From the NCBI GenBank assembly GCA_016180645.1, contig JACPAV010000007.1, positions 124,001 through 188,000 of the forward strand: a stretch of 64,000 nt of DNA. Reading direction: 5' to 3'. This stretch comes from Nitrospirota bacterium (GTDB lineage Bacteria; JACPQY01). Positions within the stretch are counted from its first letter, which is position 1. Every line of letters starts with the position of its first letter. The translations under genes were made by a program, and so were the position numbers. Below are positions 5,289-58,057 of this stretch, piece by piece. The notes under the pieces are model-generated. The model was not told the DNA's origin and made no database searches. It saw nothing but the letters and a program-made list of their open reading frames with translations.

Positions 5289-5361
<73 letters not shown>

Positions 5362-5366
5362 TGGAA

Positions 5367-5508
5367 GGGCACGTACTCACGCGCCCGCGAGCCAGGATGG
5401 TGAGCGCCGGGCCAATCGCGCAAGTGCGGCCCAGGACGGGCACGTACTTGCGCACACGCGAGCCACGATGGTGAGCCACAGGCCAATCGCGTGTGTGCGG
5501 TCCATGCC
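5367..5508 (+). repeat. 71-bp imperfect tandem repeat after tRNA-Lys
   Basis: Two units, 5367-5437 and 5438-5508, both begin GGGCACGTACT and share blocks such as GATGGTGAGC and GGCCAATCGCG at the same offset. Each contains a CGCGA...TCGCG dyad, so each could fold. The bases just before each unit (ACGGCCCA at the tRNA end, GCGGCCCA before unit 2) are also alike, so the duplicated block reaches the last bases of the tRNA. The rest of the 5362-5667 stretch up to hsdM has no gene that I can support. Confidence 0.7.
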
Positions 5509-11823: not shown

Positions 11824-12787
11824 ACGGACCAAGGCCCTTGTTCCCGAGCCGGTCGGTGTCAAGACCCTCCGGACGAACCAGCTCCAGCCGAATCCGCACA
11901 ATCCTAGGATGCTCTTCGACAAAGCGCCGATGAAGACGCTCCAAGATTCAATTGGTCAGGTCGGAATCCTGGTGCCGCTCACTGTCTACCAGCGCAGGTC
12001 GGACCGGCAATTCATCATCTTGGACGGCCAGCGGCGGTGGATCTGCGCACAGAAGGTCGGGCTGCCGACGGTGCCTGTAAATCAGGTCGCCGAGCCAAAC
12101 CTGGTTCAAAACATAGTGACGATGTTTCAGATCCACAAGCTGCGCAAAGATTGGGAGCTCATGCCGACGGCGCTCAAACTTGAAGTCCTCATAACGAAGC
12201 TGCAGGAGAAATCAGATCGCAAGCTGGCGGAACTGACGGGTCTGGATATCGCCGTCGTAACCCGTTGTAAGAAGCTGCTTTCGTACTCAAAGGAGTTCCA
12301 GGATCTGATGCTCGACCCAGACCCGGAAAAGCGCGTCAAGGCAGATTTCTTCATCGAGCTGTTTCCAGTCCTCCACGACAGGGTGGTCAAGAAGATGTCA
12401 CAACGCTCCCAAGGCCCCCTCGTTCGCAAGATGCTCGCGAAGCATCAAAGCACCGAGGGGGGTATCAGGGCAGTCACAGATTTCCGCAAGGTCAAGCAGC
12501 ATTTGGCAAACGCACGGAAGGCAGGCAAGGTCTCGGTAATCGCTCGCAGGTTTAAAGAGTTCGCCGAGAAGGTGGAGCTGAGTCCTGACCACCTGGTGAT
12601 TCCGGCGGCTAACGTGTCAGCCCAGGCAAGATCACTTCACGGCAAGGTCGAAAAACTCCAGGAAGCACTTGCAGGCCTTGACGTCGAGGCATACGTCGGC
12701 GAGGAAGCACTATGGGGCGCAATCGAGTCGCTACTTCGCACGGTTCGCAAATGCCTAGCGGTTGCAGGACGAAGGACCAATGAATGA
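11816..12787 (+). CDS. ParB/Srx-like N-terminal domain protein
   Basis: A 323-residue protein. Residues about 15-95 form a ParB/sulfiredoxin-like domain (LQPNPHNPRMLFDKAPMKTL, then IGILVPL and ILDGQRRWICAQKVG), with the D-G-x-R-R motif of the nucleotide-binding pocket. A helical HTH-like middle follows (KLAELTGLDIAVVTRCKKLL), then a long helical C-terminus. ParB-family folds act as CTP switches in segregation but also as nucleases or regulators in mobile elements. The ATG at 11816 has GGAGG six bases upstream and overlaps the methylase. The stop overlaps the next start (ATGA). No ParA is present, so plasmid-type segregation is unlikely. Confidence 0.8.
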   Translation: MTRRTKALVPEPVGVKTLRTNQLQPNPHNPRMLFDKAPMKTLQDSIGQVGILVPLTVYQRRSDRQFIILDGQRRWICAQKVGLPTVPVNQVAEPNLVQNIVTMFQIHKLRKDWELMPTALKLEVLITKLQEKSDRKLAELTGLDIAVVTRCKKLLSYSKEFQDLMLDPDPEKRVKADFFIELFPVLHDRVVKKMSQRSQGPLVRKMLAKHQSTEGGIRAVTDFRKVKQHLANARKAGKVSVIARRFKEFAEKVELSPDHLVIPAANVSAQARSLHGKVEKLQEALAGLDVEAYVGEEALWGAIESLLRTVRKCLAVAGRRTNE

Positions 12788-44077: not shown

Positions 44078-45547
44078 TCATGACGATGGGACGTCTTCTT
44101 CAATCGCTCGGAACTGCCCCAATGCGGATTCGAGGTCATCGGCGATCTCGGCAGCGATGACGCCCGGGGAGGGAAGATTCGCCCACTCTTCGAGAGATTC
44201 GTCCTTCAGCCAGAAGATGTCGAGGTTGGCCTTGTCCCGCTTGATGAGTTCGTCGTAGGAGAAGGACTTGAACCGTTCGCTCTCCTTGCGTTGGTGACGG
44301 TTCTTCGGGTTGAAGCAGCGAACGAAATCGTTCAAGTCCTCGCGTTTGAGCGGGTTCTCCTTGAGCGTGAAGTGCATGTTCGTCCGGAGATCGTGGATCC
44401 AGAGCTTTTGCGTCCAGGGCTTTTCGCCGGCAGGTTTTCGGTCGAAGAACAGGACGTTCGCCTTCACGCCTTGCGCGTAGAAAACCCCGGTGGGCAGACG
44501 CAGCAGGGTGTGAACGTCCGCCTGATGAAGGAGCTTCCGGCGAATCGTTTCCCCGGCGCCGCCTTCGAAGAGGACGTTGTCGGGGACAACAATCGCCGCC
44601 CTGCCGTGCTGTTGGAGCAAGGTGAACACGTGCTGGAGGAAATTGAGCTGTTTGTTGCTCGTTGTCGCCCAGAAATCGTCCCGATGGATGGTCAGGCTTT
44701 CGCGCTCGGCGCGCCCCTCGTCGTTCACAATGGTTACGCTGCTCTTTTTCCCGAAGGGCGGATTCGTTAGGACCATTTCGTAGTGGCGTCCGCCCTGGTC
44801 CGCCAGGGCATCCCGGACATCGATGGGAACCTTGTCCGCGCCATTCCCGCCGATGCCGTGAAGGAGCAGGTTCATGCAACAGAGCCGGGCGACGCCGTCA
44901 ACCAGTTCAAGGCCGTAAAGCGTCCCGCTCTTGAGGCGTTTCTTCTGTTCGCGGTCCAACGTGTGGTGCTTGGCGATGTAGTCGTGGGCGGCGAGGAGGA
45001 ACCCGCCCGTTCCGCACGCGGGGTCGCAGACGGTCATGCCCGGTTCAGGCCGCATCACCTCCACGAGGGCGGCGATGAGCGGACGCGGCGTGAAGTACTG
45101 GCCGGCGCCGCCTTTCACGTCCTCGGCGTTTTTCTGGAGCAGGCCCTCGTAGGCGTCGCCCTTCACGTCGGCGGATAGGGACGACCAATTTTCCTTGTCA
45201 ATCAGGTCCACGATGAGTCGCCTGAGTTTTGCGGGGTCCTGAATCTTGTTCTGGGCCTTTCGGAAAACGAGTCCGAGCATGCCCTTTTCTTTTCCGAGCG
45301 ATTCCAAGACGCGCCGGTAATGCGTTTCGAGTTCTTCGCCGTCGCGGGCCAATAGACTCGGCCAGTCGGAACCTTTCGGAACGGGTGAGGGCTTGTTGAG
45401 CGGAGGTCGCGTCTGCTCGTCCGCCATCTTGAGGAAGAGAAGGAACGTCAGTTGCTCGACGTAATCGCCGTACGACAGCCCATCATCCCGAAGGATGTTG
45501 CAATAGTTCCAGAGCTTCTGGACGAGTTGTTGGGAATGTTCGGCCAT
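44078..45547 (-). CDS. hsdM: Type I restriction-modification methyltransferase subunit M (system 2)
   Basis: A 489-residue HsdM of the compact type. Seen: N-terminal HsdM helices (QQLVQKLWNYCNILRDDGLS), EDVKGGAGQYFTPRPLI, motif I DPACGTGGFLLAA and motif IV LTNPPFGKKSS. An in-frame ATG at 45568 would add seven residues; ATG 45547 (MAEHSQQLV) is the more usual start. It is the last gene of the minus-strand system-2 operon; hsdS and hsdR lie 7-10 kb upstream, separated by accessory cassettes. A partial copy of its 5' end lies at 48918-48985. Confidence 0.93.
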   Translation of the reverse strand: MAEHSQQLVQKLWNYCNILRDDGLSYGDYVEQLTFLLFLKMADEQTRPPLNKPSPVPKGSDWPSLLARDGEELETHYRRVLESLGKEKGMLGLVFRKAQNKIQDPAKLRRLIVDLIDKENWSSLSADVKGDAYEGLLQKNAEDVKGGAGQYFTPRPLIAALVEVMRPEPGMTVCDPACGTGGFLLAAHDYIAKHHTLDREQKKRLKSGTLYGLELVDGVARLCCMNLLLHGIGGNGADKVPIDVRDALADQGGRHYEMVLTNPPFGKKSSVTIVNDEGRAERESLTIHRDDFWATTSNKQLNFLQHVFTLLQQHGRAAIVVPDNVLFEGGAGETIRRKLLHQADVHTLLRLPTGVFYAQGVKANVLFFDRKPAGEKPWTQKLWIHDLRTNMHFTLKENPLKREDLNDFVRCFNPKNRHQRKESERFKSFSYDELIKRDKANLDIFWLKDESLEEWANLPSPGVIAAEIADDLESALGQFRAIEEDVPSS

Positions 45548-45578
45548 ATCTACAGTGGTCCCAGACATCTGTTCGGAT

Positions 45579-46583
45579 TCATGCCAGCGTGTATCGTCCG
45601 GATTTTCTTGTTCCGCTGCGTTCTACCAGCTTCGCATCAATAAGCGGCGTAAGCAGATCCAGTGCCCCTTGTTTCGAGATCTTCAAGGCTTTCCAGATTT
45701 CAGCGGGCCTCATACCGCCACGGTCGCGAAGCAATTCGAGCAACTGTTCCTGTTTCGGTCTGAGCAGGAGCTTCTCTCCATGACATCCGGTAGACCATTC
45801 CCGGATTCGGCCCCAAACGTTTTCCAAGGTCACATGGACACCCTCGGCGGTATATTCGAGCCAGCTCGTCAGATTGCCGTCTGCCCGCTTGGGCTCGTCC
45901 AGGGCTTCGTAATATCGGTGCCGGTCGTTCCAATAGAACTCATCAACCGAGAAAATATGCTGCGTGTCGAAGCCTCGTCGGTACAGTTCCCACAAAGCCA
46001 GAATTCGGCCGGTCCGTCCGTTTCCATCGGCGAACGGGTGTATGTCCTCGAATCGGTGATGGACGACGGCCGATGTGATGACCGGCGACCACCGGAGCGA
46101 ACGATCGTTCCACCACGCCAATAGTTCAGACATCAGGCCGGAGACTTGCAAGGGAGGCGGGGGCATGTGCTTCCCCACCCTGACTTGAATGTCCCGATAC
46201 CGGCCTGCTTCCCCTTGTTGCATGACCCCCGTTGAGATAAGGCGGTGGATTTCCAGAACATGCCCGTGAGTCACCACCTTCACGGAAGAATTCTTTTCAA
46301 CGTATCGTAGGGCCGCCAGATGGTTCAAAACCTCGCGTTTTGACCGGGGCGTGGCGTCCGGCAGCGATTTGCCTTCAGCCAGTGCGCGCACTTTCTCCAA
46401 CGTCAGTGGGTTTCCTTCGATTGCCGTGGACGAGTGGGCCGTTCGGGTTCGGCTGTCCCTTTGAAGTTTCGGGACCCATGGCGCCTGGAGGGTGGACATG
46501 AGGATTTTCTCGCGCAGGGCCGCGATCTTCTCGATCCACTCGACGAGGAGGCCGGTTACCTGAAAGAGGGGTTCGTATGCCAC
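45579..46583 (-). CDS. Fic-domain protein (AMPylator-like), next to hsdM
   Basis: A 334-residue Fic protein. Seen: an N-terminal inhibitory-helix motif SSTAIEGNPL (class II type, near residue 54), active-site loop HPFADGNGRTGR and a C-terminal winged-helix-like region (RDRGGMRPAEIWKALKISKQ). Fic enzymes transfer AMP or similar groups to Ser/Thr/Tyr hydroxyls; the inhibitory Glu indicates self-control. Fic genes recur in type I operons with unclear purpose. It lies directly upstream of hsdM on the same strand. Three 11-bp repeats 24-45 bases before its start may regulate it. Confidence 0.92.
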   Translation of the reverse strand: MAYEPLFQVTGLLVEWIEKIAALREKILMSTLQAPWVPKLQRDSRTRTAHSSTAIEGNPLTLEKVRALAEGKSLPDATPRSKREVLNHLAALRYVEKNSSVKVVTHGHVLEIHRLISTGVMQQGEAGRYRDIQVRVGKHMPPPPLQVSGLMSELLAWWNDRSLRWSPVITSAVVHHRFEDIHPFADGNGRTGRILALWELYRRGFDTQHIFSVDEFYWNDRHRYYEALDEPKRADGNLTSWLEYTAEGVHVTLENVWGRIREWSTGCHGEKLLLRPKQEQLLELLRDRGGMRPAEIWKALKISKQGALDLLTPLIDAKLVERSGTRKSGRYTLA

Positions 46584-46596
46584 CCCGTCACACTAC

Positions 46597-46628
46597 AGAT
46601 AAGTCCAGTATTAGTCAAGTATGAGTCA
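46597..46628 (-). promoter_or_regulatory. Direct-repeat operator/promoter region of the fic gene
   Basis: On the plus strand AGTATTAGTCA (46607-46617) and AGTATGAGTCA (46618-46628) are adjacent 11-bp repeats, with a degenerate third (AGATAAGTCC, 46597-46606). Read on the minus strand they contain two TTGACT -35-like boxes. Phased 11-bp repeats place protein contacts on one helix face, suggesting an operator. Confidence 0.45.
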
Positions 46629-46670
46629 ACCGTCAAGGGTCCGGGTGTGTCCAGACCCGGCACCTGCCCG

Positions 46671-46770
46671 AGGATGCGGCGTGCAAGTTGGACTGGCGGA
46701 GGCGGGAGGCGCGAGAGAGGTCGGAGGCGACGAGTTTTTCGATCTCCTCGACCGCGCTCAGGCGGCGCAT
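46671..46770 (-). pseudogene. hsdS 3'-end fragment, copy a
   Basis: On the minus strand it encodes RRLSAVEEIEKLVASDLSRA then SRLRQSNLHAASSG, the C-terminal coiled-coil end of the system-2 HsdS, with no recognition domain. It shares a 23-bp identical core (from 46691) with copies b, c and the intact hsdS. The DUF4276 gene stop lies inside this fragment, so the junction is at about 46772. Confidence 0.85.
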
Positions 46771-47387
46771 TGAGAAGTGGGCCCCGTCCTCAGACTCTCC
46801 AGCATCTTCCTGATCTCGCGATAGCATTTGTCGAAGGAATCGGAATTGCGGGCCGTGGCCATGTCGAACACGGCGGCTAATGCCGGCTGATCATCCGTTT
46901 CAGAATAGCTCTCGCCGCTCGACATATGCGCACTTAACCAACCCTTTGCATCGCGGATGCCCTCCGGATCTGGAGGAGTCGTGATCCTTGTTGCCAGGTT
47001 ACGCTTGCCGCACAATGATCCCACCGCCGCAATGAACCACGCTTCGAATTCCCTTTTTGCCAGGATTACGGAAATGAGTGTGTCGCCCCGGGCGCGCCGC
47101 GCGCGTTCCAGAAGAATCGGCCCTTCCCTCGCTGGGCAGCAACCATTCCAATCACAGTCAAGAATTACGAGGATTCCACCTCGCCCCCGGAGCTTCCTGG
47201 CGGCAAGCTCGACCGAGCGCTCGACTTCTCCAGCCTTGATGAGGCGTGAGGCGGGCACCCGAAGGGGAGGCAGGACATGAGGGACGAAGCCGGCATCTAT
47301 CTCCTGCGCGATTCGGCGCACAAGAATCGGAACGGCCTCGATTTCCCCGTGGCCCTCCACAATTGCCGCAATTCTCACTTCCATCAT
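46758..47387 (-). CDS. DUF4276 family protein (TOPRIM-like)
   Basis: A 209-residue protein. N-terminal VEGHGEIEAVP (Glu in a V-E-G motif) and a following ILDCDWNGCCP (D-x-D) give a TOPRIM-like acid arrangement; LAKREFEAWFIAA follows. DUF4276 genes usually pair with an AAA ATPase, as here, with an ATGA overlap (47384-47387). The architecture parallels two-gene OLD/PARIS-type systems, in which an ATPase senses and a TOPRIM protein acts. Its last four residues (QCAA) are read from the hsdS fragment, showing that the gene end was created at the junction. Confidence 0.78.
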   Translation of the reverse strand: MMEVRIAAIVEGHGEIEAVPILVRRIAQEIDAGFVPHVLPPLRVPASRLIKAGEVERSVELAARKLRGRGGILVILDCDWNGCCPAREGPILLERARRARGDTLISVILAKREFEAWFIAAVGSLCGKRNLATRITTPPDPEGIRDAKGWLSAHMSSGESYSETDDQPALAAVFDMATARNSDSFDKCYREIRKMLESLRTGPTSQCAA

Positions 47388-48607
47388 GCTTTCAGATCGG
47401 CAAAGAGATCCAATTGCGAAGGGACGATCTTGTCTAGAGCTTCCTCATCCGGTTCCAATTGGTTGAGTCGCATGAGTTCGCCGGCGCTGTACAGACGATC
47501 TCTGATGGCTGACCTACCGGCGTCGTCGAGCGGTCCGATCTTGGTTTCTCCATTCCGATTGATTACAGCCAGGATGTTATGGTCCGCGATTTCCTTATCG
47601 TCCAACAGATCGGGGCTGTGACTGGTTACCGCCGTCTGAGTGGTTCTCGATGCAGCGCGCAATCCATCCCGCAATACGCCGGCCGCGCCGGGGTGCACCG
47701 CAGCTTCCGGCTCTTCGATGCCCACGAACAGAACTTTCTTTCGGCCGCCATCGGATGACTGAAATAGTGCGGTCAAGACGCCAAGAGCGCGCAGGGTGCC
47801 GTCGGACATGTTCTCAGCCATGAACCGCCAAGGATCCCGGCTGGTTCCCACGAGCTGGCGAAATTCCAGCGTTTCCTTCTTGCCGATATGTTTGACGTCT
47901 ATGCCTTGGATGCCCGGTACCACCTTGGAGAGCAAACCTACGATGCGAGCATGCAGATCCTTGTTTTCCCTTTCCAGTACCCCTAACACGCTCGCCAGAT
48001 TACTCCCGTCACGCTTGAGGACGCTTCCGGGATCGGGGGGCTGTAAGTCGCGGATTTCGTCTGGGTTCAGATTATAGAATCCCATGTGGGACAGCGCATC
48101 ATAGATTGGCCTGAAGGATGGCAAACCCGCCGCTGCCACCAGGTACAAACGATCACATGCCGCGGGGGGTGTTACGTCCATGCTGGACTGCTTCACACTA
48201 CCGTCGATCACTTTGTAAAAGTTCGCGGGCAGGCGGCCCTTGTCACGAACATGGCATTCTTCCTGCTGGACCTCGAATCCCCCCTTTTTCTGAGCACCGA
48301 CACGAAAGGCATAGAATCCCTCGCTTTGATCCGGCAACCGCCAATCCACGCGGATGCCGAAATGGGTTGGATGCCCCGATGACCGCCGCCGAACCTCATT
48401 GATCCCGCCACGGTCTCGCAGGGCGTGCTCCAGAGATGAATTGATGGAATCGGAAACCAGCCGTAGAGCGTCGAGAAAGTTGCTCTTGCCTGCGCCGTTT
48501 TGTCCGACGAGGAAGGTCAACGGACCCAATGCGACAGAGCACTCCTTGATGCTCTTATAATTGTTCAGTACCACCCTGTTCAGAAAAATAGAATCAGGCA
48601 CCATCAC
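47384..48607 (-). CDS. AAA ATPase (AAA_21/RecF-like) partner of DUF4276
   Basis: A 407-residue ABC/RecF-type ATPase. Seen: NYKSIKECSVALGPLTFLVG, Walker A GQNGAGKSNFLDAL (about residue 37), signature-like NMSDGTLRALGVL, Walker B LFVGIEEPEAAVHP and the H-loop TSHSPDLLD. This layout is shared with OLD-type and PARIS AriA-like ATPases. It overlaps DUF4276 by ATGA, so the pair forms one functional module. Placed between hsdS fragments a and b. A phage-defence role is inferred from pairing and location. Confidence 0.82.
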   Translation of the reverse strand: MMVPDSIFLNRVVLNNYKSIKECSVALGPLTFLVGQNGAGKSNFLDALRLVSDSINSSLEHALRDRGGINEVRRRSSGHPTHFGIRVDWRLPDQSEGFYAFRVGAQKKGGFEVQQEECHVRDKGRLPANFYKVIDGSVKQSSMDVTPPAACDRLYLVAAAGLPSFRPIYDALSHMGFYNLNPDEIRDLQPPDPGSVLKRDGSNLASVLGVLERENKDLHARIVGLLSKVVPGIQGIDVKHIGKKETLEFRQLVGTSRDPWRFMAENMSDGTLRALGVLTALFQSSDGGRKKVLFVGIEEPEAAVHPGAAGVLRDGLRAASRTTQTAVTSHSPDLLDDKEIADHNILAVINRNGETKIGPLDDAGRSAIRDRLYSAGELMRLNQLEPDEEALDKIVPSQLDLFADLKA

Positions 48608-48752
48608 CTCCCGGTTCGCCAGAGTACCGAAATTCGTTTCATAGTGTATAGACGCTTATACTGCACTCGGTGATTCTTTCAAACGTCGGGTGCCCATCAC
48701 CGGGGATTTCGGATACCAAAGCATTCGTGGCGGGTAGGGATCTCACCGGTTC

Positions 48753-48913
48753 CTACCACAGATCGCCGGAGAAGGCGGCGTGCAGGATGGACTGGCGGAG
48801 GCGGGAGGCGCGGGAGAGATTGGCGGCGACGAGCTTCTCCAATTTTCCGACTGCGCTCAGCCGGCGCTCAGCCTCGGCGACGATGCGGTCGTATTCATCC
48901 GATGATGATGGTA
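48753..48913 (-). pseudogene. hsdS 3'-end fragment, copy b
   Basis: Encodes DEYDRIVAEAERRLSAVGKL, EKLVAANLSRASRLRQSILH and AAFSGDLW, then a stop: the complete HsdS C-terminal end without recognition domains. About 44 bases from 48790 are identical to the intact hsdS at 52518. The 145-bp gap 48608-48752 beyond it holds only AT-rich sequence that may contain the ATPase promoter. Confidence 0.87.
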
Positions 48914-48917
48914 GGCC

Positions 48918-48985
48918 CCTCATCCCGCAAGATATTGCAATAATTGCCAGAGCTTCTGGACGAGTTGTTGCGGACTGTTCACGTC
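48918..48985 (-). pseudogene. hsdM 5'-end fragment fused to hsdS copy b
   Basis: On the minus strand the sequence reads NSPQQLVQKLWQLLQYLAG then a stop. The DNA is strongly similar to the start of system-2 hsdM (QQLVQKLWNYCNILRDDG, 45545 downwards). It is followed within five bases by hsdS copy b. The fragment is a deletion scar: a former hsdM...hsdS locus reduced to its two ends. Confidence 0.75.
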
Positions 48986-49013
48986 CCACCAATCAACGAG
49001 ACGCCCCCCTTTC

Positions 49014-49781
49014 TCAAGAAGAAAGGTGGCCTAGCGCTTGGTCTTTCTGGGACCAATAGAGTGGTTGAACTTCGTAATTTCGCAGGACGTTCAAATACTC
49101 TTCATTCGGAGGGTTCACCGGATCGTTGATTATGGTAAACGCCTGCAAAGGTTCTGGCCTGATAAGTTTAACATCGGCGACCGCGAACGCGAACAAGGTC
49201 GATTGTTCCCTCGTGAGGTTGTTAATGGCTTGGAGGACTCTCTCCGGACACTTGCTCGATTTTGGAAGGGCGAAATCGAACTTGTGATCAATGCCACCTT
49301 TTCCGGCCAGCTTGAAGTCTCTGAAGACGGATACCCCCCGCTCGCTGAGGAAATGCGCCACGTCTTCCTTGAAAAAAGACACGACGTGTTCTTGGCCCAT
49401 GACGAATAGGTCGCCGATGGCCAGGATTGCTTGAATCAGATTGTGCTTCTTCTGCGGAAAATCGTGTTCACCACTCGTGACAACGATATCATCGTTCTCC
49501 CGGCGAACGCCAAATCCGTTCAGAATTGCCGTAAGATGAGCGTTCCGTTTTTCGGTGGAAAACTCAAGCCCCGATGCTCTGAGATCGCCTAAAGTCTCCC
49601 CGTCGTCGGTGAGAAGAAGCATTCCGTTCCTCTTTTCTACAAATATCTCAATGGCATCATTGAATCTGTCGAGAAACGGCGTGGTGATACGGCAAGCCTC
49701 CCCCACCTTGGTGGCAGAAAACTCCTCTCTCAGCCATCGAAGGTATCGCTCAATCAGCACTTGGCAGTCATTCTTTGTCAT
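49014..49781 (-). CDS. DUF1828/DUF1829 domain protein
   Basis: A 255-residue protein. The N-terminal half matches DUF1828 (CRITTPFLDRFNDAIEIFVE, then LLLTDDGETLGDLRASG and LNGFGV). The second half matches DUF1829, with SVFRDFKLAGKGGIDHKFDF and VADVKLIRPEPLQAF. Conserved Asp/Glu/Lys residues in the second half could form a nuclease-like site, but the function is unknown. It overlaps its upstream partner by ATGA (49778-49781) and lies between hsdS copies c and b. Confidence 0.75.
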   Translation of the reverse strand: MTKNDCQVLIERYLRWLREEFSATKVGEACRITTPFLDRFNDAIEIFVEKRNGMLLLTDDGETLGDLRASGLEFSTEKRNAHLTAILNGFGVRRENDDIVVTSGEHDFPQKKHNLIQAILAIGDLFVMGQEHVVSFFKEDVAHFLSERGVSVFRDFKLAGKGGIDHKFDFALPKSSKCPERVLQAINNLTREQSTLFAFAVADVKLIRPEPLQAFTIINDPVNPPNEEYLNVLRNYEVQPLYWSQKDQALGHLSS

Positions 49782-50248
49782 GGCTGGAAGGTGGTTTGAA
49801 ACTCGGGCCGGTTCAGAATTGCACAGAACGCAAGGAATTTATCGAACATCGCGAAGTCCGATCCGTCACCTCCAGATGGCCAAGACGGCAAGTCATGGAG
49901 TTCGTACGCCACGGCTACATCAAAGCCCTCACGATAGATGTGCAGATGGGTTCGATCTATCCTGATACCGGGTTTGTAAGGCGCATTGGGAGGGTTCTTG
50001 TGCGGTCTTGCCTTGAGGCAAAGCCGGGCCAGAACAATGACAACTCGTCCCCGCGTTTGATAGTGCACCTTGAACTGATCGCGCTTGCTGCGGTCATAAT
50101 TCAAGATGAACACCTCTCTCTGATCCGTGGAACGCAGAGACCTCTCGTATTTCATCGGCGTGCTGGGGGAGAACTCTATGAGAGTCCTTTCCAGGAACTC
50201 CTTGGGAAGAGCCAGCAAGAAATCAGCTTCAGACTGAGTCAGCGGCAT
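49778..50248 (-). CDS. Partner of the DUF1828 protein (DUF6978-like)
   Basis: A 156-residue protein. Beta-rich features: DQREVFILNYDRSKRDQFKV, RGRVVIVLARLCLK and RIDRTHLHIYREGFDVAVAY. In my recollection small proteins of this pattern (DUF6978) neighbour DUF1828 genes. The ATGA overlap with DUF1828 supports a two-gene module. No catalytic motif is obvious beyond a conserved His/Tyr/Glu strand. Confidence 0.55.
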   Translation of the reverse strand: MPLTQSEADFLLALPKEFLERTLIEFSPSTPMKYERSLRSTDQREVFILNYDRSKRDQFKVHYQTRGRVVIVLARLCLKARPHKNPPNAPYKPGIRIDRTHLHIYREGFDVAVAYELHDLPSWPSGGDGSDFAMFDKFLAFCAILNRPEFQTTFQP

Positions 50249-50348
50249 TCGTGCCTGATCATTTCTGCATCCTTAACAAAGACGCTCATCACGACGTCTC
50301 TGCCGGAGGGGATGCCCATTTGTTTCAGAGTATACTTTCTCCGGCTGA

Positions 50349-50515
50349 TTAGACAACTTCCCCATCGACCTCACGCGGAAGCAGATTTCCGGAAAATGCC
50401 GCGTGGAGAATGGACTGGCGGAGGCGGGAGGCGCGGAGGAGGTTGGCGGCGACGGTCTTTTCAAGTTCTTCAACCGCGCTCAAGCGACGTTCGACCTCGA
50501 CGATGATGCGATCAA
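50349..50515 (-). pseudogene. hsdS 3'-end fragment, copy c
   Basis: Encodes DRIIVEVERRLSAVEELEKT, VAANLLRASRLRQSILHAAF and SGNLLPREVDGEVV, then a stop: the HsdS C-terminal coil and tail. It shares the 23-bp core (from 50413) with the other copies. The TcmP gene ends at its upper edge (50516). Confidence 0.87.
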
Positions 50516-51676
50516 TCAAGTCCAGATGAGAATATGTTTCTTGCCCCGAGCAGGTACTCTCTGCCGTTCCCGCAGTCCCTCGATGTTCAGGTGCCCTGCT
50601 TTCTGCCATTCCTCAAGCCACATTTTCAGATCGGACCCCCATGTCATCGGTTCGGACAACGCGAGCAGCCATGCCTCGTCGTAGGGCAAACGGCGCCGTT
50701 TCTCCAGGACCCCTAACAAGAGGCGACGCGACTTCTCCAGGTACCGCTCCCTCAATCGGTTGTAGTAGCTGGGGTCGTGCATCTCCTTGCTGTTGAATAG
50801 TTCGGATTGACCTGCCTTCGATATGCGCCGCCGTTGCTGAGCATCGGCGCGGGCCTTCTCCTGGACCTGCATGGCTTTCTTCTCGACATCCTTGAACACC
50901 TCGACGCCCTTCACATTCCGGGTTGCATAGATGAGGTGATAGTGGGTTTGGTCCTTTTGCGGATCAAGTACGATTGCCGTACAGGTGTGGTTGAACCCGC
51001 CCGTCCGCTTTACATTGAGAGCGTATTCGCCCACCGCCGCATCGTCTCGATCCTGTCCGGACAATGTTGCAATTGTCTCGCGGAAATCTTCCGAGCCGAA
51101 CATCTTCCTGAAGCTTTCTTTTGTCTCGTACTGTGGCGAATCAATGAATCGCCTTATGGCGCTGGTCATGAAATTGATCAGTACTTCCCCCGGCCGACAT
51201 TGAAGGAGGGGGGCAATCGTATCGAGCTCGAACCCCGCCCAGCCGGACGGGTCAATCAGAATGAACGGAAAAGAGTTTTGGCCGCCACGCCGGACGAAAT
51301 CGAGAATTTCTGGGATGGATTGTTCCAGGGCGGCATTTCGGGTCTCGATCGTCGCATAGTCGATGGTTCTTGCGAATTCGTCGAGCCTCGAATACGCCGT
51401 TGGGTCCGCTTCCAAGAAGAAACAGCGGATCGAGACATCCTTCCCACGTTGGGTGTGCGCGTCGCGAGCCTTTCGTAATTCATTCAATGCAGTCGCAAAA
51501 GAGCTGTCCGCAAACTTGTTCGAGCGGACGTTCCAAGGACCGGAAAAACAATCCACATAAGTGATCGTGTTGCACCAGGAACCGATGATGTGCGCGAAAC
51601 GCTCCAGGTATTTCTGGAGAACAAAATGTTTTACGAATGTTTGTTCGCGCCCAGCATACAATTCATCATTGCTCAT
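50516..51676 (-). CDS. tcmP: Three-Cys-motif partner protein
   Basis: A 386-residue TcmP protein. Seen: REQTFVKHFVLQKYLERFAH, TYVDCFSGPWN (the methyltransferase-like start), FFLEADPTAYSRL, FPFILIDPSGWAGFE and the C-terminal SEPMTWGSDLKMWLEEWQKA. The fold appears Rossmann-like. TcmP genes are found beside DUF5131/Gp37-Gp68 proteins, which carry the three cysteines. ATG 51676 forms an ATGA overlap with that upstream gene and is preferred to 51688. The function of the pair is unresolved. Confidence 0.88.
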   Translation of the reverse strand: MSNDELYAGREQTFVKHFVLQKYLERFAHIIGSWCNTITYVDCFSGPWNVRSNKFADSSFATALNELRKARDAHTQRGKDVSIRCFFLEADPTAYSRLDEFARTIDYATIETRNAALEQSIPEILDFVRRGGQNSFPFILIDPSGWAGFELDTIAPLLQCRPGEVLINFMTSAIRRFIDSPQYETKESFRKMFGSEDFRETIATLSGQDRDDAAVGEYALNVKRTGGFNHTCTAIVLDPQKDQTHYHLIYATRNVKGVEVFKDVEKKAMQVQEKARADAQQRRRISKAGQSELFNSKEMHDPSYYNRLRERYLEKSRRLLLGVLEKRRRLPYDEAWLLALSEPMTWGSDLKMWLEEWQKAGHLNIEGLRERQRVPARGKKHILIWT

Positions 51677-52482
51677 CCACTTGCCCACCTTCGAGCTTCA
51701 GCTTCAATCTCCCGCATGGCCTGAAGTCGTTCTTCTTCCACCGGCGATCGCACCGGCGGACGTGTGGGGAATTCGTCATAGGTTTTCCCATCCAGTCTGC
51801 GACCGGCCTCGCTCTTGCGCACGCCGCCCCATTGCTTGAAAAAGAGGGGGATTCCCGCCGCTCGACACTGGCGTCGAATCTTCCGCACCCACTCTGCTTT
51901 CATCGGCCTGGCGCCCGAACCGCTTTCACCGCCGACAATCACCCAGCCAATACCGCGCAGATTGATTCTTCCCAGATCTTCCAAGAGGGGCTCGATTGAA
52001 AGGAATCGCATTTGAGCGGGCGCGGTTCGCAGGTGGTCTACGCGTGGCAGTCCACGTTTTCGGTTTTCGACGCTCGCGCCCCACCAGATATGCTCTTGCC
52101 GACCCGCTCCGCGCAACTTTGAGCGCAGCATCGTCACCATTCGTGCAGTGCGCTTGGTAAGAACCTGAAATGTGTGCCAATTGGCCCGAACCATGACTTG
52201 TGCGACGGCGGCAATGTAATCGTCCGGGATGTCCTCGTGGAAGAGGTCGCTCATCGAATTGACGAAAATCATCCGGGGGGTGCTCCAGCGTAGTGGATCG
52301 AAAAGCTTCTCAGGGACCAGGCGAAGCTCGAACCCATCCTCAAAGGGATGGCCGGGTACGCCGCGAAACCGCTCGGCGAAGGTCTCGGCATAGCAATGGG
52401 CGCAACCCGGACTGATCTTGGTGCACCCGCGAACCGGATTCCATGTTGCATCTGTCCACTCAATCTTGGAGTGATCAGCCAC
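51673..52482 (-). CDS. DUF5131 (phage Gp37/Gp68-like) three-Cys protein, radical-SAM-like
   Basis: A 269-residue protein with C-x6-C-x2-C (Cys20, Cys27, Cys30 in GCTKISPGCAHCYAETFAER), a radical-SAM-like iron-sulfur ligand pattern. It also has MIFVNSMSDLFHEDIPDDY, FQVLTKRTARM, WWGASVENR, RFLSIEPLLED and WVIVGGESGSGARPM. This is the Gp37/Gp68 family found in phages and defence islands, partnered with TcmP. Its start lies inside the 3' end of hsdS (8-base overlap), so it is read from the same transcript. Confidence 0.9.
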   Translation of the reverse strand: MADHSKIEWTDATWNPVRGCTKISPGCAHCYAETFAERFRGVPGHPFEDGFELRLVPEKLFDPLRWSTPRMIFVNSMSDLFHEDIPDDYIAAVAQVMVRANWHTFQVLTKRTARMVTMLRSKLRGAGRQEHIWWGASVENRKRGLPRVDHLRTAPAQMRFLSIEPLLEDLGRINLRGIGWVIVGGESGSGARPMKAEWVRKIRRQCRAAGIPLFFKQWGGVRKSEAGRRLDGKTYDEFPTRPPVRSPVEEERLQAMREIEAEARRWASG

Positions 52483-53878
52483 GAGAAAGCCCTCCTGAAA
52501 ACGCTTGGTGAAGGATCGACTGGCGGAGGCGGGAGGCGCGGGAGAGATTGGCGGCGACGAGGTTCTCCAGTTCTTCGACCGCGCTCAACCGGCGCTCGAC
52601 CTCGGCGACGATGCGGTGTTGCTCGGGGAGGGGCGGAATGGGAACACAGTCAACTCGTAAATCCTCCAGATGTATATGCTGGAGTCCCGAACCTTTCGGA
52701 ACCATTTGTGCTTGGACTTGCGGTGAGGACAGAGAAATGCCCAGGAAGTCGTTCATTTCGTAAAGGACAGGCTTAACCAACGCGACTGAAACGAAAATGC
52801 TGAATTCAGTGTCAGTCTTCACCACCCTGACCACACCGAGCGTGCCGTCTTTAGAAATCAGGATGTCTCCCTGCTCAGGGTTCGCTCGTTTGATGAACTC
52901 CTCATGATCTTTTTGCGTCACATGATTCAGCTTTTTGAAGTCGACACCGGGGCCTGCTGTCAGATTACGTACAGTAACGAACGGCACACCGCTTGAAACG
53001 TAATTGGGCTTCTTGTGAACGCCATCGACAACTTTTGTTGATAACGAGTCAACCGAAGCCCATGTCCAGCCCTTGGGAAGCGGCGGGAGGTTGGAGGTGT
53101 CGGGGGGCTTGGGTTCCGTGTAAGCTTTCAGCGGTCGGCCGTCAGCTCTCAGCTTTTTTCCCGACGCTTCACGGCGGGCGGTGAGGATGCGTTCGAGGAG
53201 TTGGGCGCCGGATTCGAAGGGGCGGCCTTCCTTCCGGGCGAGTTCGGCCTCCGTTGGGACGAGTTTCCCTTCGCAGGCGGCTTTGAGCACGGCGGCTCGG
53301 TAACGCTTCAGATTCTCCTGCACGCGCTTGAGCGCGGCCACCCCCGCGTCCAGCCGCGTGAACTGCTTCTCGATCTCCGCGACGATTTGAACCTGTTCAT
53401 TCGCGGGAGCAAGTGGGAAAGTGATTTTGCCAAGCGTTTGCCCGTTGACGTTTGGCTGTCCGATCCCGCGTTTGCCCGTTTCAATTTGCGTCCAGTAGTC
53501 TGGACTTTGAAAGTAAGCATAGAGATAACGAGGTGAGACTTCAGGTGATAGGCGGACACGGATCAGATACGAGGCAAATACAGAAGGAGGACATTCTCCA
53601 ATAAGGTAACTTTTCCCGGTCGTCGCGCCGGTCCGCGCAAATACTATGTCACCGGGCAAGAGTCGGTATTTCTGAAAATCTGTTTTCGAGATGCTGCAAG
53701 ATGGAACTGAAGACCAGATTACTTTTCCATCTTGAATATCGGTGATGCGAAGAAAACGCGGCCCGTCCCTTCCCTGGATTGCTGATGCAGTGTACCCATA
53801 TTGAACGAGGGGAGCCACATCCTTGACACGAACACGTTTCCACAAACGTGAGGTGACTCGGGAACGATCAGATCTCAT
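52475..53878 (-). CDS. hsdS: Type I restriction specificity subunit S (system 2)
   Basis: A 467-residue specificity subunit with two recognition domains. The first has RDGPRFLRITDIQDGKVI and closes with LAPANEQVQIVAEIEKQFTR. The second has LPKGWTWASVDSLS and closes with PLPEQHRIVAEVERRLSAVE. The C-terminal coil (ENLVAANLSRASRLRQSILH) is the segment repeated in fragments a-c. Its ATG overlaps the stop of a short hsdR-end fragment. The intact copy lies nearest hsdR, as expected for the original operon. Confidence 0.93.
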   Translation of the reverse strand: MRSDRSRVTSRLWKRVRVKDVAPLVQYGYTASAIQGRDGPRFLRITDIQDGKVIWSSVPSCSISKTDFQKYRLLPGDIVFARTGATTGKSYLIGECPPSVFASYLIRVRLSPEVSPRYLYAYFQSPDYWTQIETGKRGIGQPNVNGQTLGKITFPLAPANEQVQIVAEIEKQFTRLDAGVAALKRVQENLKRYRAAVLKAACEGKLVPTEAELARKEGRPFESGAQLLERILTARREASGKKLRADGRPLKAYTEPKPPDTSNLPPLPKGWTWASVDSLSTKVVDGVHKKPNYVSSGVPFVTVRNLTAGPGVDFKKLNHVTQKDHEEFIKRANPEQGDILISKDGTLGVVRVVKTDTEFSIFVSVALVKPVLYEMNDFLGISLSSPQVQAQMVPKGSGLQHIHLEDLRVDCVPIPPLPEQHRIVAEVERRLSAVEELENLVAANLSRASRLRQSILHQAFSGGLSRG

Positions 53879-53908
53879 TCCGCCAACGCCTCGTTGAAAT
53901 CGAGCGTA
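53877..53908 (-). pseudogene. hsdR 3'-end fragment, copy 3
   Basis: On the minus strand it encodes DFNEALAE followed by TGA overlapping the hsdS ATG. It is similar to the HsdR C-terminus LDELNEALAA; 17 bases (CGCCAACGCCTCGTTGA on the plus strand) are identical to the end of hsdR at 55298. This is probably the original hsdR/hsdS junction. Confidence 0.6.
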
Positions 53909-53917
53909 GAGGTCATA

Positions 53918-54136
53918 CCCTCACTATTACCCTTATTTGAGGGCATTACCCTTTTTCGCAGACACACGCCTGCCTGAACCGGCTGTTCGCGGCCCAAACT
54001 GAATAGGATCACGAATACGGGCCGTGATCCTATTAATCGCTCCCGGATCAGATTCGTTCCCATTTGGCATCCCGTCCTTTTCCCAGGCACCGAATCCTTC
54101 TTGCGCGCCGCGCCTCAGCCAAGTCTCGTTACCTCT
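53918..54136. other. Inter-fragment region with TTACCC repeats and a hairpin
   Basis: It lies between two hsdR-end fragments. The block CTATTACCCTTATTTGAGGG (53926-53945) resembles the sequence at the fic 3' end (54225-54262), suggesting the relic of a second, deleted fic gene. A perfect 12-bp inverted repeat, AATAGGATCACG (54002-54013) and CGTGATCCTATT (54023-54034), lies in the middle. No intact gene is seen. Confidence 0.5.
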
Positions 54137-54200
54137 TCACGCGGCGAGCGCCTCGTTGAGTTCATCCAGCAGCTTCGGAAAAGACTCGCCGAAGGACGGG
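54137..54200 (-). pseudogene. hsdR 3'-end fragment, copy 2
   Basis: Minus-strand reading FGESFPKLLDELNEALAA then TGA, almost identical to the HsdR C-terminus FGELFPKLLDELNEALAA. The upstream hsdR sequence is absent: the fic gene ends 40 bases away. With the true hsdR end (55298) and copy 3 it gives three consecutive hsdR ends. Confidence 0.85.
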
Positions 54201-54239
54201 CGGGTCTTTCCGAAGCATTCCACGATATTACCCTTATTA

Positions 54240-55301
54240 TTACCCTCTTTTAAGGGTAATACCTCTTCTCGTCCAACGGGTGCCGGGACCCCGACCAAGG
54301 CACGCCACCCCGCCGCTCTTCTGAAGGGCGCGAAGCACGTGCCGAATCATGTCCCGGCTCACGCCCGGGCAGGCCCGCTCAAGATCGGTGAGGCTGAAAT
54401 CCGTGTCGAATCCCCGAATGGCGTCCTCGATAAGGGCCGTCTTTGCTCCCCGAGGCGCCTTGATGTTCCCCACGCGTTCCTCGAATTCTTTGTAGGCGGT
54501 CTTGAGGGTGTAGAGGAGATAATTTGCGAACGGCCAGGGGTCGTGCTTGCCCTCATGCCAACCATGCGAACTTTGTTCAAGGGTCTCGTAGTAGCGGTCC
54601 TTGTTCTGCTCGATGAGGCGCTCCAGGCTGATGTAACGACCCACCTCGTAGCCCAGATGGTAGCACTGAAGCAGGAGGAGAAGTCTTGAAACGCGGCCGT
54701 TGCCATCGCGGAAGGGATGAATGCAGAGAAAATCGAGATTGAAGGCGGCCAGGACGATCAGGGGATGAACCGCACGGTCTCGCATGGCCGAGCCCCAAGC
54801 GTTCACAAGGTCGCGTGTGGAGGCCGGAGTCTTGCCGGCGGGAACCGTCTTGAATCGGACGCGGATACGCCCGCCCGGGTACTTTTCGATGATGTCGCTG
54901 TCCTTTTCCTTGTATTTTCCGGCGTCCCATATTCTTCCCCTGGCCAAACGGTGAAGCTCCCGCACGGCCTTCTCCGTCACCGGCAGCCTCGATCCCTTCT
55001 CATGGATGAGTTTGAGCGCCTCCCGGTAGCCGTGGACTTCCTCCTCGTTGCGATCCCGGAGGACGGGCCTGCCGAGCACCAAAGTGCGGATTCGCTTCTG
55101 ATCGACGACAACGCCCTCGATCCGGTTCGAGGAGATCGCGCTTTCGATCAAGGCGTGTTCGCGCAGTACCTTGAGACGCTGAGGAGACTGGCGGGTGAAG
55201 AGCTCCTGCCTTCCGCGCGATTCGCCGAGTTCGGCGAGGTACCATGCCGTGGCCGTCGGAACGGAATCCATGCCTTTGGCCAGCAGGCGAAACGTCATCA
55301 T
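54240..55301 (-). CDS. Fic-domain protein next to hsdR
   Basis: A 353-residue Fic protein. Seen: the inhibitory motif SSNRIEGV (near residue 56), active-site HPFRDGNGRVSR (about residue 200) and the C-terminal winged-helix DLERACPGVSRDMIRHVLRA. It differs from the other Fic (45579-46583) in sequence and HPF-loop (R for A), so the two were acquired separately. ATG 55301 overlaps the hsdR stop (ATGA). Its last codons lie in a GGGTAAT-rich repeat (54225-54262) that is repeated at 53918-53955. Confidence 0.92.
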   Translation of the reverse strand: MMTFRLLAKGMDSVPTATAWYLAELGESRGRQELFTRQSPQRLKVLREHALIESAISSNRIEGVVVDQKRIRTLVLGRPVLRDRNEEEVHGYREALKLIHEKGSRLPVTEKAVRELHRLARGRIWDAGKYKEKDSDIIEKYPGGRIRVRFKTVPAGKTPASTRDLVNAWGSAMRDRAVHPLIVLAAFNLDFLCIHPFRDGNGRVSRLLLLLQCYHLGYEVGRYISLERLIEQNKDRYYETLEQSSHGWHEGKHDPWPFANYLLYTLKTAYKEFEERVGNIKAPRGAKTALIEDAIRGFDTDFSLTDLERACPGVSRDMIRHVLRALQKSGGVACLGRGPGTRWTRRGITLKRG

Positions 55302-58057
55302 GCCGCCAACGCCTCGTTGAGTTCATCCAGCAGCTTTGGAAACAACTCGCCGAAAAGCTGATGGGCCTTACCCAAGCCTCCGCGCTGACTGAAGGGAGAG
55401 TAGTCGAAGTCTTGTGCCTCGATGCTGAGGCTCGTGGAGATATGATCTCTGATGAATTCGAGCCACGCAAGCTGCTCGGCGTTGAACAACGTCCCCTTCG
55501 ACGATTTTGACTCCAGCCACGTCTTGAATCGGGTGTGGACGCTCTCGGCAAACGGTTGAAGGATAGGTTGGTGGGCCAAAGAGAAATGAACCAATGATAC
55601 AAGGTCGGCGAACCGGCCCGTTTGCGAACGTCCCCGCACTTTCGTCGGCTCGACGGAAGCAAACGCATCCCATAGACGATCCTCCGTCCACGCCGCGTGA
55701 TTTTCCCGGAGTTTCCGTTCCAAATCCTTCAACATGGCCTCCGTCAACCGGTGGCGATAGGGCCGCGAATAGAGGATCTGAAGCGCCTCGATCTCGGACT
55801 TGTGCTGCTCGATGTATTCGCGAAATGACGCTGTGGTCTTCCGAGCGTTAAGATCAGACTGGGGCGTGCCGCCCGCAAAGAGTACGCGGTCCCGTGAAAT
55901 CACGTCGATCACTTGGTCCGCCGTCCGATGCACTTTGATCAAGAGTTGCCGCAGATCCGGATTCCCCGCGAGCGGCGCGGCAGCCGCCTGCGCAAGGCCG
56001 TCGGCGGCAGTTTTCAGGGCGGCGGCCGTCGGCTCCTTGTAGCCCGGCGTACTTCCAGCCGCAGCCTCTGCGATTTTGTCCGGATTCACGGCATCCAGGA
56101 GCCTGCCGGCGATCTCGGACAGGGTCTTCCCTTTCGCGGTCGCCGTCACTTCATCGGCGAGGTGTTCATCAAGCCGCTTTTCCAGTCGGATGAGACGGCC
56201 GGCCAGACTTTCGAGAGAGTCCGCATCCCGTGCCCCGAGGGCAACGGCATCCAGGAGCTTCTCGAATAAAACATTCGGCTTTTTCTCGAATGGACGAGAA
56301 TCGGTCTTGTCGCGTTCACAGACCCCGACGGCGTCCACGATCACGAACCGCGATTTTCTCTTGATTCCGGGGTTGACCTGTTCCATTTCGGTCTGGGAAA
56401 TGACGCGCACGCCCCGGCCCTTCATCTGCTCGAAAAAACTGCGGGATTTCACGGAGCGCATGAAAAAGACGATTTCCAACGGCTTGATGTCGGTTCCCGT
56501 CGCGATCATATCGACGGTGACGGCAATGCGAGGAAAGTAGCTGTTCCGGAACGTCTTGATGAGGGTTTTCGGGCTTACGCCGGTGGTGCGATAGGTGATC
56601 TTCTGGCAAAAGTCATTCCCCTTGTCAAAGACTTCGCGGCAGATGCGGACGATGTCCTCCGCGTGGGAGTCGTCCTTCGCGTAGATCAACGTCTTGGGCA
56701 CATCCTCCCGGCCCCGAAAGATGTCCGTGAACAACTTTTCCTTGAAGGTTTTCAGCACCGTGCGGATTTGGTCCTCGGCGACCACGTCCCGGTCGAGTTG
56801 TCCGGCCTCGTAGCTCAGATCTTCATCGAGCAGCTCCCACCGTTTCTTTCGCGTCAGTCGGTCGCGCTTGTCGACGTAGAATCCGGCGTCGATTTTCGAT
56901 CCCGCGTCCGTGATGTGCGTCCGGATTTGGTAGACGTCGTAGGGCACGTTTACGCCATCCGTTACCGCCTGCTCATGACCGTATTCCATCACAAGATTTT
57001 GTTTGAAGAATCCGAATGTCTGTTTCGAGGGCGTGGCCGTAAGTCCGATGATCTTGGCGTCGAAATACTCCAAGACCTGCCGCCAAAGGTGGTAAATCGA
57101 GCGATGGCATTCGTCCGTGATGATGAAATCGAACGTCTCGATGGGGAATTTCGGGTTGTATTCGACGGGGACGGGCTCCTTGAATACGGATTCCGCCGAC
57201 TCGATGCCAAGTTCATCCAGATCGGGCGGCGGTTCCGACTCGCCCTTCAACATCGAATAGACCCGCTGGATGGTGCCGATGACCACGCGGGCCGGGGAGT
57301 CGAGGGTGTTGGAGGTCAAATGTTGAACGTTGTACTCCTCTGGGAACTTGTAATTGTTGACCGGGGAAACGAATTGCTGAAATTCTTTCAGGGTTTGTTC
57401 GCCCAGATTGCCCCGATCCACGAGGAAGAGAATGCGGCGCGCGCCGGCATACTTGATCAGGCGATAAACGAAATTGACCGCGGTGAAAGTCTTGCCTGAG
57501 CCGGTGGCCATTTGGATGAGAGCGCGGGGGCGGTTGGCGGCAAAGGATTCTTCCAGTTTCTTGATGGCGCGTATTTGGGCGGACCAAAGGCCCTTCTCGA
57601 TCAGTTCGGGCATTTCGCGAAGGCGCTGGTTGAGCTGATTTCCTGCGTTCACCCATTCGAGCAGGGTCTCCGGTCGATGGAATGCAAACACAAGGCGGCT
57701 GCGCGGCTCCGGATCGAGTCCGTTGGTGAAGTAGGTTTCCGTCCCGGTGCTCTCGTAGGCGAATGGAAGCGGATCCCGCCACGCCTGCATGCCGGAGGGG
57801 ACTCCCCTGATGTACTTCCCGGACTGTTCTTCGACCCCGCTGAGGGTGTGCCCTTCTTTCTTGGCCTCGACCGTTCCGATGGCCTTGCCGTCTACGAACA
57901 GGGTGTAGTCGGGCTCTCCCGTCTTCATGGAGAGGTTGCATAGCGCGACGCCCCTGGATGCGGCCAGGTTGGCGGCCGCTTTTTCCTGTACGACCCACCC
58001 ACATTGATCCAATAAGCTATCGATGGTGGTTCGAGCTTTGTCTTCAGGAGTTCTCAT
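55298..58057 (-). CDS. hsdR: Type I restriction subunit R (system 2)
   Basis: A 919-residue translocase-nuclease. Seen: N-terminal nuclease core EPDYTLFVDGKAIGTVEAKK (PD-(D/E)XK), Walker A ATGSGKTFTAV, FIITDECHRSIYHLW (DECH), GLTATPSK, DMIATGTDIKPLE and QMKGRGVRV. The C-terminal EcoEI-type domain ends FGELFPKLLDELNEALAA. It starts the minus-strand operon at ATG 58057. The 137-bp gap to the next gene (58058-58194) holds no recognisable gene. Unlike system 1, no S24 domain is attached. Confidence 0.94.
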   Translation of the reverse strand: MRTPEDKARTTIDSLLDQCGWVVQEKAAANLAASRGVALCNLSMKTGEPDYTLFVDGKAIGTVEAKKEGHTLSGVEEQSGKYIRGVPSGMQAWRDPLPFAYESTGTETYFTNGLDPEPRSRLVFAFHRPETLLEWVNAGNQLNQRLREMPELIEKGLWSAQIRAIKKLEESFAANRPRALIQMATGSGKTFTAVNFVYRLIKYAGARRILFLVDRGNLGEQTLKEFQQFVSPVNNYKFPEEYNVQHLTSNTLDSPARVVIGTIQRVYSMLKGESEPPPDLDELGIESAESVFKEPVPVEYNPKFPIETFDFIITDECHRSIYHLWRQVLEYFDAKIIGLTATPSKQTFGFFKQNLVMEYGHEQAVTDGVNVPYDVYQIRTHITDAGSKIDAGFYVDKRDRLTRKKRWELLDEDLSYEAGQLDRDVVAEDQIRTVLKTFKEKLFTDIFRGREDVPKTLIYAKDDSHAEDIVRICREVFDKGNDFCQKITYRTTGVSPKTLIKTFRNSYFPRIAVTVDMIATGTDIKPLEIVFFMRSVKSRSFFEQMKGRGVRVISQTEMEQVNPGIKRKSRFVIVDAVGVCERDKTDSRPFEKKPNVLFEKLLDAVALGARDADSLESLAGRLIRLEKRLDEHLADEVTATAKGKTLSEIAGRLLDAVNPDKIAEAAAGSTPGYKEPTAAALKTAADGLAQAAAAPLAGNPDLRQLLIKVHRTADQVIDVISRDRVLFAGGTPQSDLNARKTTASFREYIEQHKSEIEALQILYSRPYRHRLTEAMLKDLERKLRENHAAWTEDRLWDAFASVEPTKVRGRSQTGRFADLVSLVHFSLAHQPILQPFAESVHTRFKTWLESKSSKGTLFNAEQLAWLEFIRDHISTSLSIEAQDFDYSPFSQRGGLGKAHQLFGELFPKLLDELNEALAA

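Follow-up and report, generated by a model that had tools for sequence, protein, structure and literature searches.

A type I restriction operon with repeated gene ends

The 64,000-nucleotide stretch analysed here, which we call the window, comes from the draft genome of a Nitrospirota bacterium (4.7 Mb in 65 contigs; G000:C7:124001-188000, contig JACPAV010000007.1) and holds a type I restriction-modification (RM) operon of order hsdR-hsdS-hsdM, within which additional genes, arranged as cassettes, alternate with copies of the ends of the operon genes. In its unoccupied form this operon consists of three genes with overlaps of about 4 nt. In the window it lies on the minus strand, as do all the features described below, and reads hsdR, Fic1, hsdS, cassette 1, fragment a, cassette 2, hsdM remnant, fragment b, cassette 3, fragment c, Fic2, hsdM, the three fragments being copies of the hsdS 3' end. 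The operon genes themselves are intact: hsdR (55298..58057; Pfam EcoEI_R_C/ResIII), hsdS (52475..53878; 467 aa), whose own 3' end is the first copy of the repeat, and hsdM (44078..45568; 496 aa), with 95% amino acid identity over residues 8-291 to the hsdM of G001, a genome of the same family.

The first-pass annotation had reported four hsdS 3' ends in the same orientation, and sequence matching confirmed them, with exact cores at 46690, 48789 and 50412 and one at 52517 with a single edge mismatch. The block of 23 bp (CGCGCCTCCCGCCTCCGCCAGTC) identical in all four copies and the exact run of 44 bp common to fragment b and the intact gene were also recovered as described. Alignable extents are 50382-50513 for fragment a, 48759-48890 for b and 46666-46768 for c, with 79-91% identity (E 5e-16 to 3e-38), and a search of the genome with the hsdS C-terminus gave strong matches at these four places only. 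Fragment a (50349..50513) runs IDRIIVEVERRLSAVEELEKTV...LPREVDGEVV to a stop codon and fragment b (48753..48890) EYDRIVAEAERRL...SGDLW to a stop codon; fragment c (46660..46768) lacks a stop codon and has also lost the beginning of the conserved region. Translated in the hsdS frame, the copies read HRIVAEVERRLSAVEELENLVAANLSRASRLRQSILHQAFSGGLSRG (hsdS), DRIIVEVERRLSAVEELEKTVAANLLRASRLRQSILHAAFSGNLLPREVDGEVV (a) and DRIVAEAERRLSAVGKLEKLVAANLSRASRLRQSILHAAFSGDLW (b), each followed by a stop, and RRLSAVEEIEKLVASDLSRASRLRQSNLHAASSG (c), which is not. Only the last ~33-47 hsdS codons are present in the fragments, and no target-recognition domain (TRD). Chance and codon convergence were rejected as explanations of the 23-bp core, given that the homology spans 100-130 bp and extends to the stop codon in a and b. 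Fragments a and b and the hsdS fragment of a related locus (L055) all start at the same hsdS codon, which was considered as a possible specific breakpoint; fragment c and the fragment of a further locus (L125) begin elsewhere. Because the TRD upstream varies too much to be aligned, the common fragment start may be a detection limit.

The three intervals between these copies contain the gene pairs originally described. Cassette 1 comprises a DUF5131 gene (51673..52482; PDC-M30B, 6e-100) and a PDC-M30A-like gene ('TcmP'; 50516..51688; 6e-12), whose stop codon lies within a few bp of fragment a. Cassette 2 comprises a DUF6978 gene (49778..50248; PDC-M24A, 3e-31) and a DUF1828-DUF1829 gene (49014..49781; PDC-M24B, 4e-83). 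Cassette 3 comprises an AAA ATPase (47384..48607; HEC-01A, 1e-160) and a DUF4276 gene (46758..47387; HEC-01B, 1e-68), whose reading frame stops inside fragment c. These PDC and HEC candidate genes sit between genes of another defence system, and their family names suggest that the cassettes have an anti-phage role. The rule of one two-gene cassette per interval needs a qualification, since an hsdM remnant also lies between cassette 2 and fragment b. Similarly, the statement that each cassette directly follows an hsdS end applies to cassette 1, which overlaps hsdS by 8 nt, but DUF6978 starts about 100 nt after fragment a and the AAA gene about 150 nt after fragment b. Fragment c, too, is followed by a cassette that had been overlooked: Fic2 (45579..46583; Pfam Fic, with a C-terminal winged helix), the fourth, lies between it and hsdM. 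Three direct repeats of ~11 bp (TTGACTCATACTTGACTAATACTGGACTTAT), which lie at 46583-46625 upstream of Fic2 and hsdM and also just upstream of hsdM in L053, may be an operator, and a nearly identical element is found directly upstream of hsdM in G001. In enteropathogenic Escherichia coli (EPEC), RptR likewise has three direct repeats as its binding site at an RM promoter (PMC12255303).

Ends of hsdM and hsdR are repeated in the same operon. The hsdM remnant (48915..48985), which covers the 5' end up to codon ~29, is joined to fragment b in what we denote an M5'//S3' joint, and self-comparison aligns its positions 48915-48980 with the true hsdM start at 45478-45541 (88% over 66 bp). Self-comparison also identified two extra hsdR 3' ends between hsdR and hsdS, flanking Fic sequences. 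The single-gene cassette Fic1 (54240..55301; Pfam Fic) begins in a 4-nt overlap (ATGA) with the hsdR stop. It is followed by hsdR copy 2 (54131..54216), which retains its own stop and is 79% identical to the hsdR end of the window, matching that of G001 at 52/57 bp. A Fic 3'-end remnant (53916..53958; 77% to 54229-54271) is a sign of a second, partly deleted Fic insertion. Copy 3 (about 53875..53910) looks like the original R/S junction because its TGA overlaps the hsdS ATG (ATGA), just as R-S and S-M overlap by 4 nt in unoccupied relatives. With hsdM and hsdR ends among the copies, the phenomenon therefore extends to the ends of genes throughout the operon and to the R/S as well as the S/M boundary. 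Elsewhere in the window, another defence region has a direct repeat of ~79 bp (5355-5504; 82%).

Gene-end scars in related operons

A scan of genome contigs for hsdS ends gave 19 loci with related ends, to which we added loci from the phylum of G040 (84 genomes searched) and from 386 broadly sampled genomes in which hsdM was the query. Comparing each of 70 oriented loci with itself, and retaining repeated pieces of hsdR, hsdS or hsdM of 40-250 bp with E<1e-5, we found 11 pieces at gene ends and none in gene interiors, all 11 of them direct (several are from the window, and not all are independent). Among the other genes of the same loci, end and interior repeats occurred alike and were mainly due to paralogues. 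The full repeat list adds to this strictly filtered set the M5'//S3' joint of L125. Apparent extra hsdS ends located 150-300 bp after hsdS in the G040 phylum were not counted, as they match at ~40% and mainly in the variable C-terminal tail.

The scars involve an hsdR 3' end around an MNT-HEPN pair (L050), an hsdM 5' end around HicBA (L077), hsdM 5' ends in L082 and in L085, the latter on a single 6.66-Mb contig, and an hsdM 3' end in L086; in L120 an hsdR 3' end and two hsdM 5' copies are stacked around RloA/B-like and AbiE pairs. They recur in several phyla (those of G021, G040 and the window are distinct in the grouping of the search tool), and the M5'//S3' joint recurs independently in the window and L125. 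L055, from a Verrucomicrobiaceae metagenome-assembled genome, is a relic with an hsdR 5' piece, an hsdS 3' end, three genes and an hsdM 5' piece; a repeat array (CGGTGAACGAGCCACCGATCC..., 6900-7310) and a further direct repeat (9705-9745) flank this relic and its genes. Two other repeats were noted in oriented coordinates, which also apply to L075 and L108 below: L120 has an array of 80-bp tandem repeats (6951-7167) after a GIY-YIG gene and beside the displaced hsdR 3' end, and L102 a scar from a non-RM gene, with the 3' end of the gene that follows hsdM (12455-12504) repeated at 90% between hsdR and hsdS (7335-7385).

Occupied and unoccupied boundaries are both frequent. Where hsdS and hsdM were found in order (41 loci), they lie within 200 bp of each other in 10 (-8 to +3 nt, mostly a 4-nt overlap) and have at least one open reading frame between them in 30, and hsdR and hsdS are within 200 bp in 16 of the 35 loci in which hsdR was seen. 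The cassettes of relatives encode UPF0175 and PIN proteins, AbiEi/AbiEii, RloB with an AAA protein, and AbiL- and AriA-like proteins, besides HicBA-like and MNT-HEPN-like pairs recognised from their sequences. G001, in which hsdR and hsdM are 88% and 95% identical to those of the window in the aligned parts, has only one hsdS end, and its hsdM is truncated and separated from hsdS by four other genes. Its hsdM stops at residue 291 (L049, 6792-7616), and for this reason its RM system is probably inactive; the cassettes look intact.

Relatives lacking the extra insert allow the stacking to be followed at two sites, L077 versus L100, L074 and L076, and L081 versus L051; for the window, only G001 is available, with a different cassette set. 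The order is S - C1 - hsdM in L100, L074 and L076, and S - C1 - hsdM 5' remnant - HicBA - hsdM in L077. Positions 8809-10207 of L077 match 8972-10371 of L100 at 92%, from C1 through the intergenic region into hsdM codon ~33, and the match ends at the HicBA block. The HicB block, in turn, matches at 91% a piece of hicB that immediately precedes hsdM in L089, and there is no evident homology at the C1/HicB junction. L077 is a stacked mosaic of two singly known cassettes; since its blocks match singly occupied relatives, alternative occupants of the S-M boundary can be stacked with a gene-end scar between them. L081 and L051 have a like pattern at the hsdM start (89%). In L120, two scars are 98% identical and have a common 60-bp insert, implying that the scar itself was copied or reused. 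The proposal that cassettes arrive at the hsdS 3' end and stack up is partly supported: it keeps its stepwise addition at a conserved gene end, but hsdS has no special place, as hsdR 3', hsdM 5' and hsdM 3' ends serve equally in the window and in relatives.

No recombinase, transposase or integrase was found among the window cassette genes in Pfam-level annotation, and the insertion points differ (R3', S3', M5' and M3'), with no fixed att or attC site. A site-specific integrative element or integron cassette was rejected on these two grounds. Neither do the hsdS ends appear to belong to the cassettes. The first-pass annotation had supposed that each cassette brought an hsdS end from its donor, and had named cassettes without such a boundary elsewhere as one of two findings that would speak against it; across nine loci with PDC-M24 homologues, hsdS lies directly upstream in L144 only. 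In a second locus RM genes lie a few kb off, and in most of the nine the retrieved sequence contains no RM gene. PDC-M24 relatives on plasmids do not exceed 40% identity. On these nine loci we rejected an intrinsic tagging of cassettes by hsdS ends: because homologous cassettes elsewhere often lack an hsdS boundary, the gene ends are scars of the landing site and not parts of the cassette. The same genome has a second PDC-M24 pair (G000:C18:26800-28000, L140), 38% identical to that of the window and with no RM genes within ~9 kb.

Origin of the copies and route of insertion

The differences between the intact hsdS and fragments a, b and c are mostly synonymous (14.3/11.7, 12/8 and 14/10, respectively), as are those separating the window hsdS from that of G001, both of them functional genes (14/8). 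When local duplication with one neutral copy was simulated, this pattern had P=0.031 (a), 0.030 (b) and 0.014 (c), and the hsdR 3' copy of L120 had P=0.001, while two selected copies fit. The window fragments would then be mostly ends of different functional alleles and not one decayed local duplication, and a single local duplication for all fragments is disfavoured by these simulations. Fragment c also matches the hsdS end of G001 at 87/103 bp. The earlier suggestion that each fragment came from a donor hsdS is supported insofar as the fragments behave as different functional alleles, but no close relative of these cassettes was found beside an hsdS. Local duplication is compatible with the simulations for L077, L082 and L086, and local target duplication may also happen.

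The best explanation of these data is probably that a donor fragment recombines at the conserved end of an operon gene and is joined illegitimately on its far side. Under this model, Fic, DUF5131 with its PDC-M30A-like partner, PDC-M24, HEC-01 and the other Fic would have entered the R/S and S/M boundaries singly and in succession, in every case from donor DNA made of the cassette and a short piece of a neighbouring operon gene. That piece would recombine homologously with the conserved end of the resident gene (hsdS 3', hsdR 3' or hsdM 5'), and the other side of the fragment would be joined without homology. In the simplest version, which we infer, the fragment closes on itself by end joining and integrates by one crossover; the operon gene would remain intact with the cassette adjoining it, and the displaced or duplicated end would persist as a direct-repeat scar on the far side. 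An M5'//S3' joint, such as the one in front of fragment b, would be a direct product of this route, representing the two ends of an S3'-cassette-M5' piece joined together in the circle. The joints of L077 (hsdM codon 33//HicB) and L125 (M5'//S3') have no evident homology, as read by eye from aligned sequences, and the other junction of the insert lies in the homologous gene end. Since the genes overlap by 4 nt, an insert would spare both of them only if a gene end is duplicated, so that the survivors would be expected to carry scars. What the sequences show directly is the set of repeats, confined to gene ends and direct throughout, their presence in several phyla, relatives whose operons are empty or singly occupied, and the L077 mosaic.

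Several observations weigh against this model. No close relative of cassettes 1-3 was found beside an hsdS, and no donor was identified. Of the three window cassettes, two have only a few bp between their end and an hsdS fragment, which is tighter than random end joining needs. The L077 hsdM 5' remnant is closer to its own hsdM (98/108) than to that of L100 (94/108) and has non-synonymous changes; it fits local target duplication, and donor origin is therefore not universal. The per-pair P values are modest, and the fragments short.

The hsdM 5' copies of L077 and L082 are closest to their own intact hsdM, which is also an argument for a true insertion with long target duplication of the type described by Kobayashi. 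The end of the resident gene would be duplicated, through, for instance, a long staggered break that is then filled in, such that both copies derive from the recipient and one decays. Long and variable direct repeats around inserted genes are the defining pattern of such events (PMC1643837, PMC3031569). Nevertheless, we regard this as an unlikely account of the whole, because the differences seen in the three window fragments and the L120 hsdR copy are synonymous too often for one copy to have been neutral, the genes of G001 are at least as good a match to fragment c and hsdR copy 2 as those of the window, and target duplication alone leaves the M5'//S3' joint of the window and L125 unexplained. 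That joint, together with the R5'-S3' joint of L055, is what would be left by deletions following a tandem duplication of the whole operon, or recombination between two R-S-C-M operons, if large deletions removed everything except the ends. Deletions that keep both gene ends do occur in hsdM: in L075 (2034-2362) and L108 (9743-10101), from G121 and G124, residues ~1-60 are joined to ~425-495. Such a history is nonetheless improbable, for it needs several independent deletions, each halting within ~30-140 bp of a gene end, and the self-comparisons of the loci revealed no longer remnants or interior pieces; moreover, L077 is a small block added at the hsdM 5' end, the remainder being colinear with relatives.

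Two further explanations concern the nature of the copies. Partial hsdS copies near hsdS are a hallmark of phase-variable hsdS systems, and in this respect the fragments could be taken for silent segments used in switching specificity. We rejected this scarcely credible option, as they comprise the last codons only, all in direct orientation, and there are no alternative TRDs, inverted repeats or recombinase gene among the cassette genes. Mis-joining of metagenomic sequences at the conserved hsdS end deserves mention, the window being from a draft genome, and is highly improbable: the copies differ from one another, each has its own unique junction, and a like anatomy is found in many unrelated assemblies. 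As one of these, L085, lies on a single contig, mis-assembly is not the explanation, and it was rejected.

Relation to known insertions and meaning for the operon

Defence genes embedded in type I RM loci and long direct repeats at RM insertions are both already known, and the present case is a variant of each, the second being termed insertion with long target duplication. It goes back to Nobusato, Uchiyama, Ohashi and Kobayashi 2000, as cited in PMC1643837, PMC3031569 and PMC4978471; in one Helicobacter pylori case, given in the last of these, one RM system has inserted within the cluster of another and is accompanied by a direct repeat. The likeness lies in inserted genes with long direct repeats and in the association with RM; inserted DNA lies between long direct repeats of the target in the window and in relatives. 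The difference is that here defence or toxin-antitoxin cassettes enter an RM operon at its gene ends, are stacked, often come with different alleles and have M5'//S3' joints. Embedded genes include rlo/mlo in the hsd loci of Campylobacter jejuni (PMC5183652), DarTG2 in an EPEC type I RM system (PMC12255303) and the PADLOC PDC and HEC candidates, and resemble the window, with its PDC-M30, PDC-M24 and HEC-01 matches, in placing accessory defence or toxin-antitoxin genes between hsdR, hsdS and hsdM. These reports, as far as they were read, describe the embedding, and we did not find gene-end scars, their order or an insertion route described there. Integrative elements that regenerate a gene 3' end, of the tRNA or guaA type, similarly keep an intact gene with a displaced 3'-end copy on the far side and accrete in tandem, but no integrase was found among the window cassette genes, the insertions involve four kinds of gene end, some of them 5' ends, and the repeats are not identical att cores.

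Classical homology-facilitated illegitimate recombination (HFIR) yields deletions, not duplications. A closer parallel is provided by E. coli receiving linear DNA with one lacZ end: 56 of 60 recombinants had duplicated part of that end, by 109-950 bp in the 14 sequenced, which was interpreted as the outcome of one crossover involving a recircularised molecule (PMC3240628). HFIR and the recircularised single crossover have in common with our model one homologous junction in a gene end and one illegitimate junction, and in E. coli duplication of the gene end is the usual product. That work used a laboratory plasmid system, and its duplications contrast with the ~30-140 bp of the window, which are possibly trimmed. 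We found no description of the combination seen here, in which stacked cassettes in RM operons carry scars of R, S and M ends across phyla, with singly occupied and unoccupied relatives.

Defence islands and embedded genes are well documented, but little is known about how a restriction operon can take in genes and continue to function. Gene-end scars offer a footprint with which such entries can be sought, counted and placed in temporal order, making the stepwise build-up of a defence island readable. They are, at the same time, repeats through which cassettes could be lost again, and the need for gene-end duplication in an overlapping operon would explain their survival. It is possible, although on balance doubtful, that conserved ends of operon genes are general, recombinase-free docking sites and that pieces consisting of a gene end and a cassette circulate across phyla among R-S-M operons. 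If this is true, the operon would be a cassette array based on homology, and its gene-end scars would preserve the order of insertion.

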